Shown in pieces: positions 4,639 to 60,145 of a stretch of DNA of 64,000 nt (positions within the stretch are counted from its first letter, which is position 1; each line of letters starts with the position of its first letter). Below the pieces are notes generated by a model that did no database searches, had not been told where the DNA came from, and saw nothing but the letters and a program-made list of their open reading frames with translations. The DNA lies in IMG/VR virus record IMGVR_UViG_3300042465_006864, positions 1-64,000 of that record. The stretch is one strand, 5' to 3'. The position numbers were made by a program, and so were the translations under genes. Source of the stretch: a virus.

Positions 4639-7533
4639 TTAATTTTTTCCTCCGTAGTTAAGTTCATAGAGATACATATTAGTCGTTCCCGTAGATGCGA
4701 CTAATGTTTTTGCCATTTGACCAAGACCTCCAAATCCTAAATTTGGTCTAGCTGGCGCACCGCTAGCAACATAAGTTACACTGCCAATTAGAATAGTATC
4801 ATTTAACCAAAAATTGAATACTCCATTTGATTTATGTATGTATATTCTTGCTAATTTTTCGGCAAATGCGTCTGTATTCAAAAGCACATTTGAAATATAA
4901 TGTGAGTTTCCACCGCTTGTCCAAGTGCCATTTCCGCTTGAGCTATTTAATGAATATGAATTACCATCAATCCGTGTTACTGTCCAAATTCCATTTGCTG
5001 CTGTATTACCTAAACAGCCATCAATTTCTATTTGATCATTCGTAACAAAACCATGATTATTTTGCGTAATGACAATAGGTGATGCATTTGTAGCCGCAGA
5101 TATTGTGGATCTAAAATAAGGTAGTCCAAACCCATGAAAAATACGAATATCATAATTCGTTGATGAAGATCCATTTGTGATATGAACTCCTAGTCCGCCA
5201 TATACTGATACTATTCCATCAGTATTAATATTACCTGCAAAAAGCTTAACGAGTTGATTTGTTCTTACATTTGCACTATTGATAGCATATGTAAAATTGA
5301 ACACCCAATCAAACCATATCTCTGACATATCCCACTGGATTGATGAGTAACCATTTGCTGTAACTATTCCTAGTGGACATAAGGATAATTGATTTGCTTG
5401 TGAAAATGATTTAGATCCTAATGTAGTAGTAGTATACGCATTCAAATAGGACGGAGTTGGAGAAGTGCCTCCACCACTCGCATGAGATGTGTTCCAAGTT
5501 CCGCCAACATTACATTTGCGATTAATGATATATCCATTTAGTCCTGCATTTACTCGCGTAGTTAATACACTATCAAGAGAAGAATATAATTGATTAGGTA
5601 ATGATAAACTATTAGAAACTTGTAATGAATCTGCAATAGTTAAATCTTGAACAGTTAAGTCTGCATCCAACTTAGCACTTGTCACGCTACCATCAGCAGG
5701 TATGTTTTGTGATACCTGTAAACTATTCGTCGGTGATATGACAACTGCTTTGCTTCCACTTGGTAATGGACTTGTGAATGTTATGTTTCCACTAGCTACA
5801 GTATAGTCAACAACAGGCTCTTGTAAGATACCATCAATAGCCACAATGAGTGCTGATGGATTTACTAACCCGCTTGCTCCCGATATTGCATATCCAGAAG
5901 TAGCGCCATTACCTGTTACAGTTGTTCTTACTGGATCGACAACTGTTGCATAGTTATTAGGATTGCTTGCAGCGTAGAACTGTCCCGTTTGAAACTGTGT
6001 AATAAATACTCCAGTTTCTGTTTTTAAAGCATAATTTCCTGTCGCACTGTTCAATGTGGAAATTTGGGTTTGCAAACTTCCACTAATGCCAGTCATCTCT
6101 TCAACAGAAGCTATCGTATATAAAACACTTAGATCGCTAGCTCTAGTTCCAATTCCAAACTTAAACTTATCTGAATGATCAAAACCAAGAATCGCACCAG
6201 AATCATTAATCCCAGTCAAACCAGAACCAGTAACAAAAAACAAACCACCATCAACTGCTCCACCAGTTAAGTTGAGCATGATGTAGTTACTTGCTACGTT
6301 TGTGTTTGTGGTATTTACGATTGTTTCAAGACCAGTTACATACAAATTGTTGATGTATACTTTATCATGAAAGGTTTTGTCTCCAAGTATTGTTTCTGTG
6401 CCAGTTGTATTAACGTATCTGGATTCAGATTCGTTTTTGGTATAATAGTTGCCAGAGAACGAAAGATCGACTCCTGTAATAAATCCAGAAGGATTGCTGG
6501 CAGCATAAAATGCCCCTGTCTCTGATGGTCTCACAACTTCTCCAGTGACATAGCCCGATAAAAGACCACTAACAGTATGATCAAAATCAATCAGCGTTCG
6601 CACTTGGCTTGCTGTCAAATCTTCAGGATCGCTTGTTCCAGCAGAAATACGACCTTTGATGCGCTGAGAAGCCATATCTGCCAATTTAGTATTGGTAACA
6701 GCGTTTGTGGCGATAATGTTAGTAGTGACAGAAAGACTCGACAACTTGTCAGTTGTGACGTTAAAGTTAGCGATTTTAGCAGTTGTCACTGCGCCATCGG
6801 CAATTTTGCTATTGGTAATTGCAGAGTTATCTATCGAAAAATTTAAATTGCTGGAGCTATTGCCAGTAATAGTAATATCACCACGATCACCTGTTAAAGA
6901 ATTAAAACTAATAAAATCACCAGTCTCACTTGGACGAACTACACTTCCTGTGACATAAGCAGAAAGGTCAACTCCCGTAATAAATCCCGAAGGATTACTC
7001 GTTGGATAAAATGCTCCTGTCTGCGATGGTCGCACAACTTCTCCAGTTACGTATGCAGATAAATCAACACCAGTAATAAATCCAGAAGGATTGTTGGCAG
7101 CGTAAAATGTTCCAGTTTGCGAAGCGGTGATGAAGCTGCCTGTTTCAGAGGGTCTTACCACATCTCCTGTAACATATGCTGACAAGTCAACGCCAGTAAT
7201 GAATCCAGATGGATTAGAAGCAGGATAAAAAGCTCCAGTTTGCGAAGCCGTAATGAAATTGCCCGTATCAGAAGGTCTAACAACTGCTCCAGTCACTAAA
7301 TTAGTATACTGTCCAGATGTTAAGTGATAATAGCTATTGACAGAACCACCTTGTAAGCCACCTAAAAGATTGTGAAGAAGTTCATCACTTCCGCCGCTTT
7401 GATGCGTTACTGAGTGATTAATAATGCCCTGATTTAACGTCAAAGGATTAATGTAAATATTTTCGCCAGTATCATTCACTGTGATACTAGTAGTTTCTGG
7501 AGAGATTACATTAACAACAACTGAGTCTGGCAT
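4639..7533 (-). CDS. Long repetitive tail fibre protein
   Basis: 964 aa. The N-terminal half is built of a recurring module of about 45 residues, SGFITGVDLSAYVTG followed by VVRPSETG and GxFY(A/P)(A/S)(N/S)NP; GFITGVDLS occurs four times and VVRPS.TG at least five. The C-terminal about 330 residues are unique and resemble a beta-rich head domain (WTSGGNSHYISN, LARIYIHKSNGVFNFWLND). The nucleotide copies differ mostly at synonymous positions, so the repeats are kept at protein level. It follows the BppU-like gene by 2 nt. Long virion fibre or side fibre by repeat architecture and context. Confidence 0.82.
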   Translation of the reverse strand: MPDSVVVNVISPETTSITVNDTGENIYINPLTLNQGIINHSVTHQSGGSDELLHNLLGGLQGGSVNSYYHLTSGQYTNLVTGAVVRPSDTGNFITASQTGAFYPASNPSGFITGVDLSAYVTGDVVRPSETGSFITASQTGTFYAANNPSGFITGVDLSAYVTGEVVRPSQTGAFYPTSNPSGFITGVDLSAYVTGSVVRPSETGDFISFNSLTGDRGDITITGNSSSNLNFSIDNSAITNSKIADGAVTTAKIANFNVTTDKLSSLSVTTNIIATNAVTNTKLADMASQRIKGRISAGTSDPEDLTASQVRTLIDFDHTVSGLLSGYVTGEVVRPSETGAFYAASNPSGFITGVDLSFSGNYYTKNESESRYVNTTGTETILGDKTFHDKVYINNLYVTGLETIVNTTNTNVASNYIMLNLTGGAVDGGLFFVTGSGLTGINDSGAILGFDHSDKFKFGIGTRASDLSVLYTIASVEEMTGISGSLQTQISTLNSATGNYALKTETGVFITQFQTGQFYAASNPNNYATVVDPVRTTVTGNGATSGYAISGASGLVNPSALIVAIDGILQEPVVDYTVASGNITFTSPLPSGSKAVVISPTNSLQVSQNIPADGSVTSAKLDADLTVQDLTIADSLQVSNSLSLPNQLYSSLDSVLTTRVNAGLNGYIINRKCNVGGTWNTSHASGGGTSPTPSYLNAYTTTTLGSKSFSQANQLSLCPLGIVTANGYSSIQWDMSEIWFDWVFNFTYAINSANVRTNQLVKLFAGNINTDGIVSVYGGLGVHITNGSSSTNYDIRIFHGFGLPYFRSTISAATNASPIVITQNNHGFVTNDQIEIDGCLGNTAANGIWTVTRIDGNSYSLNSSSGNGTWTSGGNSHYISNVLLNTDAFAEKLARIYIHKSNGVFNFWLNDTILIGSVTYVASGAPARPNLGFGGLGQMAKTLVASTGTTNMYLYELNYGGKN

Positions 7534-7535
7534 AA

Positions 7536-7868
7536 TTATCTAGTGGTACTTTTTTCTACATAAACAGGTCCATAGAGCAATTTGTCTGGACACTCCGACT
7601 CTTTATCGACATATAAATCCCAGCTACAAGGCGCAAGATCAATATTGGCAGTAGTTGAGCCATTTAAACTGATTTTTACTATACCACTTGGTATGCTGAG
7701 TATTTCAGTTTGCAAAACAGCTTGCAATTCATCATCAAAGTCACGACGAATTTGTCCAGTCACATTAGCTCCGCTGAGATTATAAACGCTGCCGTTTTTC
7801 TGTAACTGCACTGTTAAATTAAAACATGCCCTTTGCTCAATATGAATACCTGTCAATGATGCGCTCAT
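7536..7868 (-). CDS. Baseplate/tail-appendage protein (BppU N-domain-like)
   Basis: 110 aa. The pattern of an early F(N)LTVQLQKNGSVYNLSGA strand, then VTGQIR, then WDLYVD near residue 85 resembles the N-terminal baseplate-attachment domain of BppU-type proteins that anchor fibres. It directly precedes the long fibre in the operon, which fits an adaptor role. A late promoter motif lies 6 nt upstream of the ATG. Family assignment is by pattern only and is tentative. Confidence 0.55.
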   Translation of the reverse strand: MSASLTGIHIEQRACFNLTVQLQKNGSVYNLSGANVTGQIRRDFDDELQAVLQTEILSIPSGIVKISLNGSTTANIDLAPCSWDLYVDKESECPDKLLYGPVYVEKSTTR

Positions 7869-55855: not shown

Positions 55856-56146
55856 ATGATTAAAAACATTACAGCAGAAGAAATTAAAACAACATACCGC
55901 GACAATCATGGATTCGCATTTGTTTCGGCGCAACCAGTTTCTGACGATGCAATCTATCGACTGGCAGATTCATTGATTCAATTCAACATTGCGACTAAAC
56001 ATCCTATTGTCGTGACACGTTATCAACAAGGCGTGGTTTTTATTTACGATGATTTCGACGCTCCTAAGTTTTTCGCTAAGGCGCAATTTGCAGAGCAGGT
56101 GCTTGGTATTTGCAAAATAGTTCCATTTTTGGAGTATGTGAAGTAA
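55856..56146 (+). CDS. Hypothetical protein
   Basis: 96 aa, alpha/beta, CKIVPFLEYVK end. IKTTYRDNHGFAFVSAQPVS and DFDAPKFFAKAQFAEQVLGI. No family recognised. Followed by the tRNA-like element. Confidence 0.55.
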   Translation: MIKNITAEEIKTTYRDNHGFAFVSAQPVSDDAIYRLADSLIQFNIATKHPIVVTRYQQGVVFIYDDFDAPKFFAKAQFAEQVLGICKIVPFLEYVK

Positions 56147-56153
56147 CAATTTT

Positions 56154-56308
56154 GAGCGTGTGGCGGAATTAGACGCAGTGGGTTCGACTCCCACCTCCTC
56201 CATTCTTGGAGAGACGAGAAACGGACGAGACTAACAGGTGAGAGTCCAGTGCTTCCATTTCGGGGGCAGCGTTAGTCATGCAGGTAATCAATCCTGCCAC
56301 GCTCGCCA
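56154..56308 (+). tRNA. Large tRNA-like element with serine features
   Basis: 155 nt. Acceptor GAGCGTG (56154-56160) pairs perfectly with CACGCTC (56298-56304), followed by G and an encoded CCA. Next comes a Leu/Ser-type D arm (GGCGGAATTAGACGC) and GTGGG-TTCGACT-CCCAC, which can be read as an anticodon arm with CGA (Ser). A stem GCAGG/CCTGC abuts the 3' acceptor as the T arm, with an atypical loop TAATCAAT. About 83 nt lie between, ten times a normal variable loop. G73 and a long variable region are serine marks. Could instead be a rearranged or intron-bearing tRNA, or a tmRNA-like molecule. Confidence 0.45.
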
Positions 56309-56339
56309 ATTAAAAATAATAAAAACAATAAAAAAACAA

Positions 56340-56528
56340 ATGAAGTCAATTGATCTTGCGATGGCGTTTATCTCTTTAGCTCTAATAGCTATATTTGGGA
56401 CTTGTATGGCAATGTTTGGAGCTGATGAAGTGGCAAGTCTACGAAAGCAAGCTATAGAACGTGGACATGCTGAATACGTGGTAGACTCAAATGGAAAAAT
56501 AACTTGGCAATGGAAGGATGCAAAATGA
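56340..56528 (+). CDS. Small membrane protein
   Basis: 62 aa from ATG 56340; one helix about 5-25 (DLAMAFISLALIAIFGTCMA) then a charged tail (YVVDSNGKITWQWKDAK). Coupled to the next membrane gene by ATGA. Unknown role. Confidence 0.5.
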   Translation: MKSIDLAMAFISLALIAIFGTCMAMFGADEVASLRKQAIERGHAEYVVDSNGKITWQWKDAK

Positions 56529-59878: not shown

Positions 59879-60145
59879 ATGAAAGCACAATCAGCATACT
59901 TCTCACTGTCTAATGACACTGGCTACGATGCCTTGGAAGTGCATACCGTTCAAATCTTTTTAGACGATTATGCAGATCAGCTGTCGGCAGGAGAAGAGAT
60001 TTGGGAAGGCGCATCAATAATCTGGAGCCTATACGGTCACACTCCAAACGAAGGATTAGAATGCATCGGTGATTTTAATTCTTTTGAAGCAGCATGTGAG
60101 ATTGCCGAGAAGTTGGGCGGAAAATTATTTCCAAAAACATCTTGA
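59879..60145 (+). CDS. Hypothetical protein
   Basis: 88 aa from ATG 59879 (MKAQSAYFSLSNDTGY). Acidic alpha/beta protein, FEAACEIAEKLGGKLFPKTS end. A longer out-of-place frame upstream overlaps the AT-hook gene. Its stop overlaps the RuvB-like promoter. Confidence 0.5.
   Translation: MKAQSAYFSLSNDTGYDALEVHTVQIFLDDYADQLSAGEEIWEGASIIWSLYGHTPNEGLECIGDFNSFEAACEIAEKLGGKLFPKTS

Follow-up and report, generated by a model that had tools for sequence, protein, structure and literature searches.

A tRNA-like element with an enlarged interior in a virus genome, a very probable member of a widespread family of putatively non-decoding phage RNAs

The window analyzed here is the whole stretch of DNA comprising positions 1 to 64,000 of the IMG/VR virus record IMGVR_UViG_3300042465_006864. 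It carries a tRNA-like element of 155 bases on the plus strand (56154–56308), whose presence at these coordinates was confirmed (Table 1). The nearest upstream gene stops 7 bases 5′ of the element, and a search of the plus strand between the two revealed no promoter-like site that could serve as the element's own. Thus, the element is probably contained in an operon transcript and, as judged from this arrangement, the upstream 96-residue ORF is probably co-transcribed with it. A second, GTG-initiated ORF of 96 residues (56238–56528) overlaps the element and is probably spurious; the real downstream gene starts at ATG 56341.

Table 1. Features at the locus and parts of the element, in window coordinates.
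Feature	Position	Strand	Basis
Upstream 96-aa ORF	55856–56146	+	Neighbor conserved in L004, L007 and L040
Acceptor helix, 5′ strand GAGCGTG	56154–56160	+	Perfect 7 bp with 56298–56304; covariation in 46 family members
U8-G9 and D-type arm GCG-GAATTAGA-CGC (tRNA-Leu D arm without G18G19)	56161–56176	+	Sequence; comparison with tRNA-Leu
Anticodon-position arm GTGGG-TTCGACT-CCCAC, 5 bp	56178–56194	+	MFE; two-sequence consensus fold; match in position to L142
Insert hairpin CTCCTCC-ATTCTT-GGAGAGA	56195–56214	+	L004 counterpart ATCCTCT-ATTT-AGGGGAT
Conserved insert stretch CGAGAAACGGACGA	56215–56228	+	Identical in L004/L005
Variable-arm-position helix GACTAAC...GTTAGTC	56229–56277	+	Window MFE
Hairpin GCTTCC-ATTTC-GGGGGC inside variable-arm-position helix	56251–56267	+	Window MFE
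T-like arm GCAGG-TAATCAAT-CCTGC, preceded by AT; noncanonical T loop	56280–56297	+	T stem covaries in family
Acceptor helix, 3′ strand CACGCTC	56298–56304	+	Pairs with 56154–56160
G73 discriminator and encoded CCA (GCCA)	56305–56308	+	Sequence

The unconstrained MFE fold of the element includes every main arm (−59.4 kcal/mol, z = −2.85), with 1 of 200 shuffled sequences folding as well. The perfect 7-bp acceptor, the G discriminator, the encoded CCA and the TTCGACT-loop arm described in the first-pass annotation were all found, and the distance of about 83 nt that it gave between this arm and the T-like arm is 85 nt by coordinates (56195–56279). Its Leu/Ser-type D arm is indeed of the Leu type, with the correction that G18G19 is missing from the D loop; the T-like loop that it called nonstandard is so and, moreover, TAATCAAT is typical of the family described below. 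The description of a giant variable region was also largely right: a single A separates the D-type arm from the anticodon-position arm, and the variable-arm-position helix stops two bases short of the T arm, an arrangement shared with an 82-nt relative (L142). The TTCGACT loop, a T-loop look-alike, occupies the anticodon position, and the element is an enlarged version of the family plan. ARAGORN, and Rfam at gathering thresholds, missed the element while calling other tRNAs of the window. The ARAGORN check that had been proposed, tmRNA included, made no call here, neither a tRNA with an anticodon nor a tmRNA, and the program does not call relatives of the element either.

Two virus contigs, identical to each other over 4.5 kb (L004 and L005), carry the same element in the same place. 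The element and its flanks are 91% identical between the window and these contigs, compared with 68% in DNA for the adjacent 96-residue gene. Every difference but one between the elements of the window and L004 sits in one hairpin whose stem is preserved; the stem at 56195–56214 is maintained by one two-sided and two one-sided changes. Changes confined in this manner, beside a gene that is just 68% identical, argue that the element is more than a product of chance. The window's own interior is supported only by this single homologous insert, and in L004 the variable-arm helix competes with a fold of almost the same energy, which the two-sequence consensus fold prefers. The elements of L040 and L041 at the same locus are 86 nt long and match that of the window in acceptor and flanks, but they have another interior and an ordinary T loop; at the level of sequence, one locus therefore holds the same shell with different interiors. 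L007 has a large upstream gene with a product that is 93% identical, but here the element has been lost except for its 3′ edge, which indicates that it is dispensable there.

The 16-base D-arm sequence of the window element, TGGCGGAATTAGACGC, was scanned through IMG/VR as a seed and occurs in 76 distinct viral contexts. Most matches show a common frame: a 7-mer is followed by the seed, an interior that differs in length, a GCAGGTA...AATCCTGC-like arm, and the complement of the 7-mer. For a fair test, seed matches were picked by the T-like motif alone, within 300 nt, and acceptor pairing was not a criterion. A T-like arm follows the seed in 48 of the 76 contexts, compared with 3 of 93 in a comparable upstream stretch (Fisher p 1e-18). 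The acceptor strands of these 48 form all seven pairs in 42 cases and six of seven in 3, for a total of 45/48. Counted over distinct acceptors, 31 of 34 have at least six pairs, while 2000 shuffles of the partners averaged 2.7 and never exceeded 9. Covariation was measured on 46 aligned shells that, in contrast to the motif-only set, were selected partly by acceptor pairing: 99.6% of cells are paired, and the covariation is 0.671, compared with 0.168 for shuffled and 0.08–0.12 for slid alignments. Every acceptor pair in these shells varies on both sides, the T stem covaries across the family, and the T preceding the T arm is invariant (46/46). Because the seed fixed the D arm, the conservation of this arm among members is built in, and the counts under-represent members that have a different D loop.

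The window element has the 7-bp acceptor that varies in sequence while pairing is maintained, and it combines the D loop GAATTAGA with the noncanonical T loop, as do 44 of 45 elements of the seed set. The family model R1, whose alignment (A4) contained neither the window nor the L004 sequence, scores the window element at 63.6 bits versus 36–42 for cyanophage tRNA-Leu, a score that is not fully independent because the seed was taken from the window. Taken together with the seed, T-arm and acceptor counts, this element is very probably one member of a phage family of tRNA-like RNAs. The family appears, from the sequences, to comprise previously uncatalogued, widespread phage RNAs of class-II (Leu-type) tRNA-like form, and what had been called unusual for a phage proves to be recurrent. 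A clear member (58 bits), reached by BLAST of two family members against a phage collection, is located at 7524–7689 of vir555 (BK063671), the host of which is given as Methanomicrobiales. A search of genome contigs with GAAACGGACGAGACTAAC gave one Bacillus match, and the seed 16-mer is absent from 299 genomes of the phylum of this Bacillus, which provides no evidence for a cellular source in that phylum. BLAST of the whole element against phage records returned short fragments only, with tRNA-Leu among the best. A pattern, GGTTCGANTCCN{12,42}GAAACGGAC, was discarded, as the 30 stretches that it found beyond L004/L005 were mostly tRNA-array coincidences. Searches of the open-access literature revealed no description of the family, the novelty of which is therefore provisional.

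Members of the family share with class-II tRNA (tRNA-Leu) the 7-bp acceptor, U8G9, the Leu-type D-arm sequence, a helix at the variable-arm position (terminating two bases 5′ of the T arm in many members), the T stem and sometimes CCA. In contrast to tRNA-Leu, they lack G18G19 and the T-loop UUC, and have a degenerate anticodon arm and a long structured insert. The family D arm equals that of tRNA-Leu minus the GGT that carries G18G19; phage tRNA-Leu genes have TGGCGGAATTGGTAGACGC. In tRNA, the elbow contact is formed by G18-Ψ55 and G19-C56 (PMC4810234). A canonical T loop (UUC) is present in 1 of 45 members without GG and in 12 of 12 elements that keep GG (p 2e-11). These 12 have the same flanks as the members; eight of them are tRNA-Leu-type genes of 81–84 nt, and the other four are elements with long interiors found in phages that also carry the family. 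As the losses of the D-loop GG and the T-loop UUC coincide, both sides of the elbow contact are gone together. The anticodon-position arm is short or irregular, with a GTTGAA loop in L142 and GACAA-type loops in several 65–69-nt forms, and by sequence it is degenerate across the family. Decoding is unlikely in view of this arm, and the proposed Ser/CGA identity is not supported, as the D arm is of the tRNA-Leu type and the anticodon arm degenerate.

The interiors themselves are constrained, structured and lineage-specific. Four pairs of sister phages (window/L004, L132/L143, L094/L158 and L090/L122) show two-sided compensatory changes in insert helices, and two of these pairs show them in the shell as well. 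L090 and L132 have identical acceptors and different inserts; likewise, members of the AGCAAGG and GAGCGCG groups share an acceptor and differ in insert.

The 3′ ends provide modest evidence for a fit with tRNA-type maturation. An encoded CCA follows the element in 3 of 6 contigs whose phage tRNAs encode CCA and in 0 of 11 where they do not (p 0.03). The count covers the 17 contigs with both an element and recognizable tRNAs; it treats the window, which has mixed tRNAs, as CCA-encoding and omits the doubtful element L115. About one-fifth of the members lie near tRNA genes, some inside or beside tRNA arrays. Several phages have tandem copies, often an elbow-less element beside an elbow-bearing one and sometimes only 6–7 nt apart. 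The tandem partners in L213, L214, L215, L218 and L186 are tRNA-Leu-like genes of 93–130 nt with normal D and T loops and odd interiors, and L217 has a related element with a hairpin insertion in its D loop and a canonical T loop.

The comparisons above reveal a class-II tRNA shell under strong covariation, an elbow absent on both sides, a degenerate anticodon arm, and a lineage-specific insert in the middle. We favor, on balance, the reading that the element encodes a free tRNA-like RNA that does not decode and that belongs to a phage family not described before. From the sequences, we infer excision by tRNA enzymes, exclusion from translation and a payload function. The enzymes that mature tRNA ends would release the RNA from the operon transcript, with RNase P acting at the 5′ end, and 3′ processing and CCA repair would finish its 3′ end. 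The shell would then serve as a stable scaffold presenting the insert, which would be the working part and bind a protein or another RNA of host or phage, and the loss of elbow and anticodon would exclude the RNA from the ribosome. This scaffold-with-payload mechanism is plausible but tentative. RNase P and RNase Z both clamp the tRNA elbow (PMC4810234), so its loss could impair the proposed processing.

The strongest functional rival, which we nonetheless consider unlikely, is an anti-defense decoy: the RNA would mimic a host tRNA and occupy or absorb a host immune nuclease that cuts tRNA, with an arms race driving the variation of the interior. Interiors do vary even at one locus, copies are found in tRNA arrays, and phage tRNAs counteract tRNA-targeting defenses, according to two reports (PMC11555353, PMC12409363). 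However, a decoy for the known anticodon nucleases would be expected to have a proper anticodon loop, whereas that of the family is degenerate; additionally, interiors are structurally conserved between sister phages, and no defense gene was tied to the element. A working tRNA-Ser(CGA) or tRNA-Leu, in which the extra sequence is a removed intron or a tolerated giant variable arm, would account for U33 and CGA in frame in a 7-nt loop and for G73 with CCA, but C37 and the absent elbow contacts are unlike decoding tRNAs, and the irregular anticodon-position loops of relatives, which ARAGORN does not call, make it highly improbable. Decay of a tRNA-Leu/Ser gene, or of two tandem tRNAs wrecked by deletion and insertion, is already largely refuted and is the least credible of these readings. 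Although the acceptor, D and T arms look tRNA-Leu-derived and the L007 phage has lost its copy, decay would not leave the acceptor paired in 31 of 34 distinct cases or maintain one unusual T loop across dozens of phages, and the element with its flanks is 91% identical next to a gene at 68%. The TTCGACT hairpin could also be taken as a T arm, with a closed acceptor and then a D loop containing GG after it, in a circularly permuted tRNA or Y-RNA-like domain. The order of a T-arm-like hairpin, a 6–7 bp hairpin with a compensatory change, and AGAAACGGA does look permuted, and circular permutation of a tRNA is seen in bacterial Y RNA (PMC11472068). We favored this reading at first and dropped it, since the interiors of other members are unrelated. 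The permuted order is absent from them, the D stem would be limited to two pairs, the virus record has no TROVE/Ro60 gene (the host may hold a copy of this Y RNA partner), and no YrlA match was obtained even at E 10. The flanking acceptor strands of 46 members covary as one outer helix, with unrelated inserts sharing the same position, which contradicts the permuted or fused tRNAs of the first-pass annotation; unlike bacterial Y RNA, the element is not circularly permuted, and we regard such readings as very unlikely. Similarity to tmRNA and permuted tmRNA consists of tRNA-like ends flanking non-tRNA sequence and a short local similarity at the T-arm-like hairpin; in contrast to these RNAs, the element scores far below the gathering score of 47 and is not called as a tmRNA.

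The element could alternatively be a divergent manA RNA (RF01745), a proposed cis-regulator and riboswitch candidate of cyanophages, an identity that we consider improbable. The manA model matches over its full length with 23.2 bits (E 3e-4) in the window and with 25.8 bits (E 5e-5) in L004; four loci, most of them tRNA-rich (10 kb of tRNA arrays), gave no match. Both RNAs are phage-borne and have the same succession of parts: an outer stem, a D-like arm, central hairpins, and a helix immediately 5′ of a T-like GGUA..AAUCC arm. CMCompare has linked manA and tRNA, and manA has been described as a frequent neighbor of tRNAs (PMC3692125); in S-CREM1 it is flanked by tRNA-Leu and tRNA-Asn, and in S-SSM7 it immediately precedes tRNA-Gly. 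However, the scores of the window and L004 are less than half of the gathering score of 55.2 bits, both lack the manA closing stem and the GGUGGUG/ACCA kissing loops, R1 misses five genuine manA RNAs, and whole-record searches failed to recover the manA match. Furthermore, manA has no 7-bp acceptor or CCA, contains a different central domain, and is annotated as cis-regulatory. Membership in manA was thus rejected, as the matches are below threshold and not reciprocal; common descent is possible, with manA as a weak, possible distant relative. Among the manA RNAs at L008 616–830 and in L072–L076, those of P-SSM2, P-HM2 and S-SSM5 begin shortly after a TATAAT-like box, and the S-CREM1 and S-SSM7 copies abut tRNA genes; these manA RNAs appear more like free RNAs than 5′ UTR switches. 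The annotated CDSs PHM2_011/012, SSSM5_127 and SSSM7_180 overlap manA RNAs and may be spurious.

Mimicry of tRNA by noncoding RNA is already known from tmRNA, Y RNA and the 3′ ends of plant viruses, and bacterial Y RNA (YrlA) is a noncoding tRNA mimic that has been reported from phages too. In biotechnology, tRNA scaffolds carry foreign RNA in the anticodon or variable region of a tRNA shell; they resemble the family in this respect, and differ in being artificial and in retaining the elbow. Apparently new here is a recurrent phage family that keeps tRNA ends, sheds both halves of the elbow in step and swaps its middle. Its existence suggests a role outside translation for tRNA-shaped RNAs made by phages. 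A broader and still more tentative proposal is that phages of bacteria, and possibly archaea, possess a broad natural class of tRNA scaffolds, with a Leu-type shell, a dismantled elbow, tRNA-like processing away from the ribosome, and interchangeable payloads at fixed loci, sometimes with tandem elbow-bearing partners, of which manA could be an old branch. If transcribed, the family raises the question of which tRNA functions (end processing, charging, stability or ribosome entry) need the elbow. It also allows orphan phage RNAs such as manA, which have long been put forward as riboswitches, to be interpreted anew, and implies that counts of phage tRNA genes overlook a whole class of tRNA-like genes.

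Other structured RNAs were noted among the contigs. An unannotated tRNA-like element in the tRNA array of Phapecoctaviruses of E. coli (L166 1151–1226, equivalent to phAPEC8 60020–60095) is found in 85 records, mostly Phapecoctavirus, at an identity of at least 95%. Its T loop, TATCGAAT, is 8 nt long, a usable anticodon loop is missing, and by BLAST of two members against a phage collection it shares only the T arm with the family; as its D loop has GG and its score of 23 bits is like that of ordinary tRNAs, it is just a lead. On the minus strand of L009 (about 1900–2050), a conserved ATTAGGTTCTCTTGAAACGGACTCTTGGGGGAGATCTAATGC...TTGAACCTATCTGGGAG stretch lies directly 3′ of a tRNA of the tRNA-Lys type, whose anticodon loop is TTTTAA, and occurs also in L010, L012, L013, L014, L018, L019, L025, L026, L027, L031, L036 and L038. 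Rfam gave no match to this stretch in L009, L014 and L036, and it looks like another structured, unannotated RNA. Finally, a 167-kb virus contig (L023) contains a tmRNA gene on the minus strand at 6669–6934, which scores 127 bits as permuted tmRNA and 100 bits as beta tmRNA.
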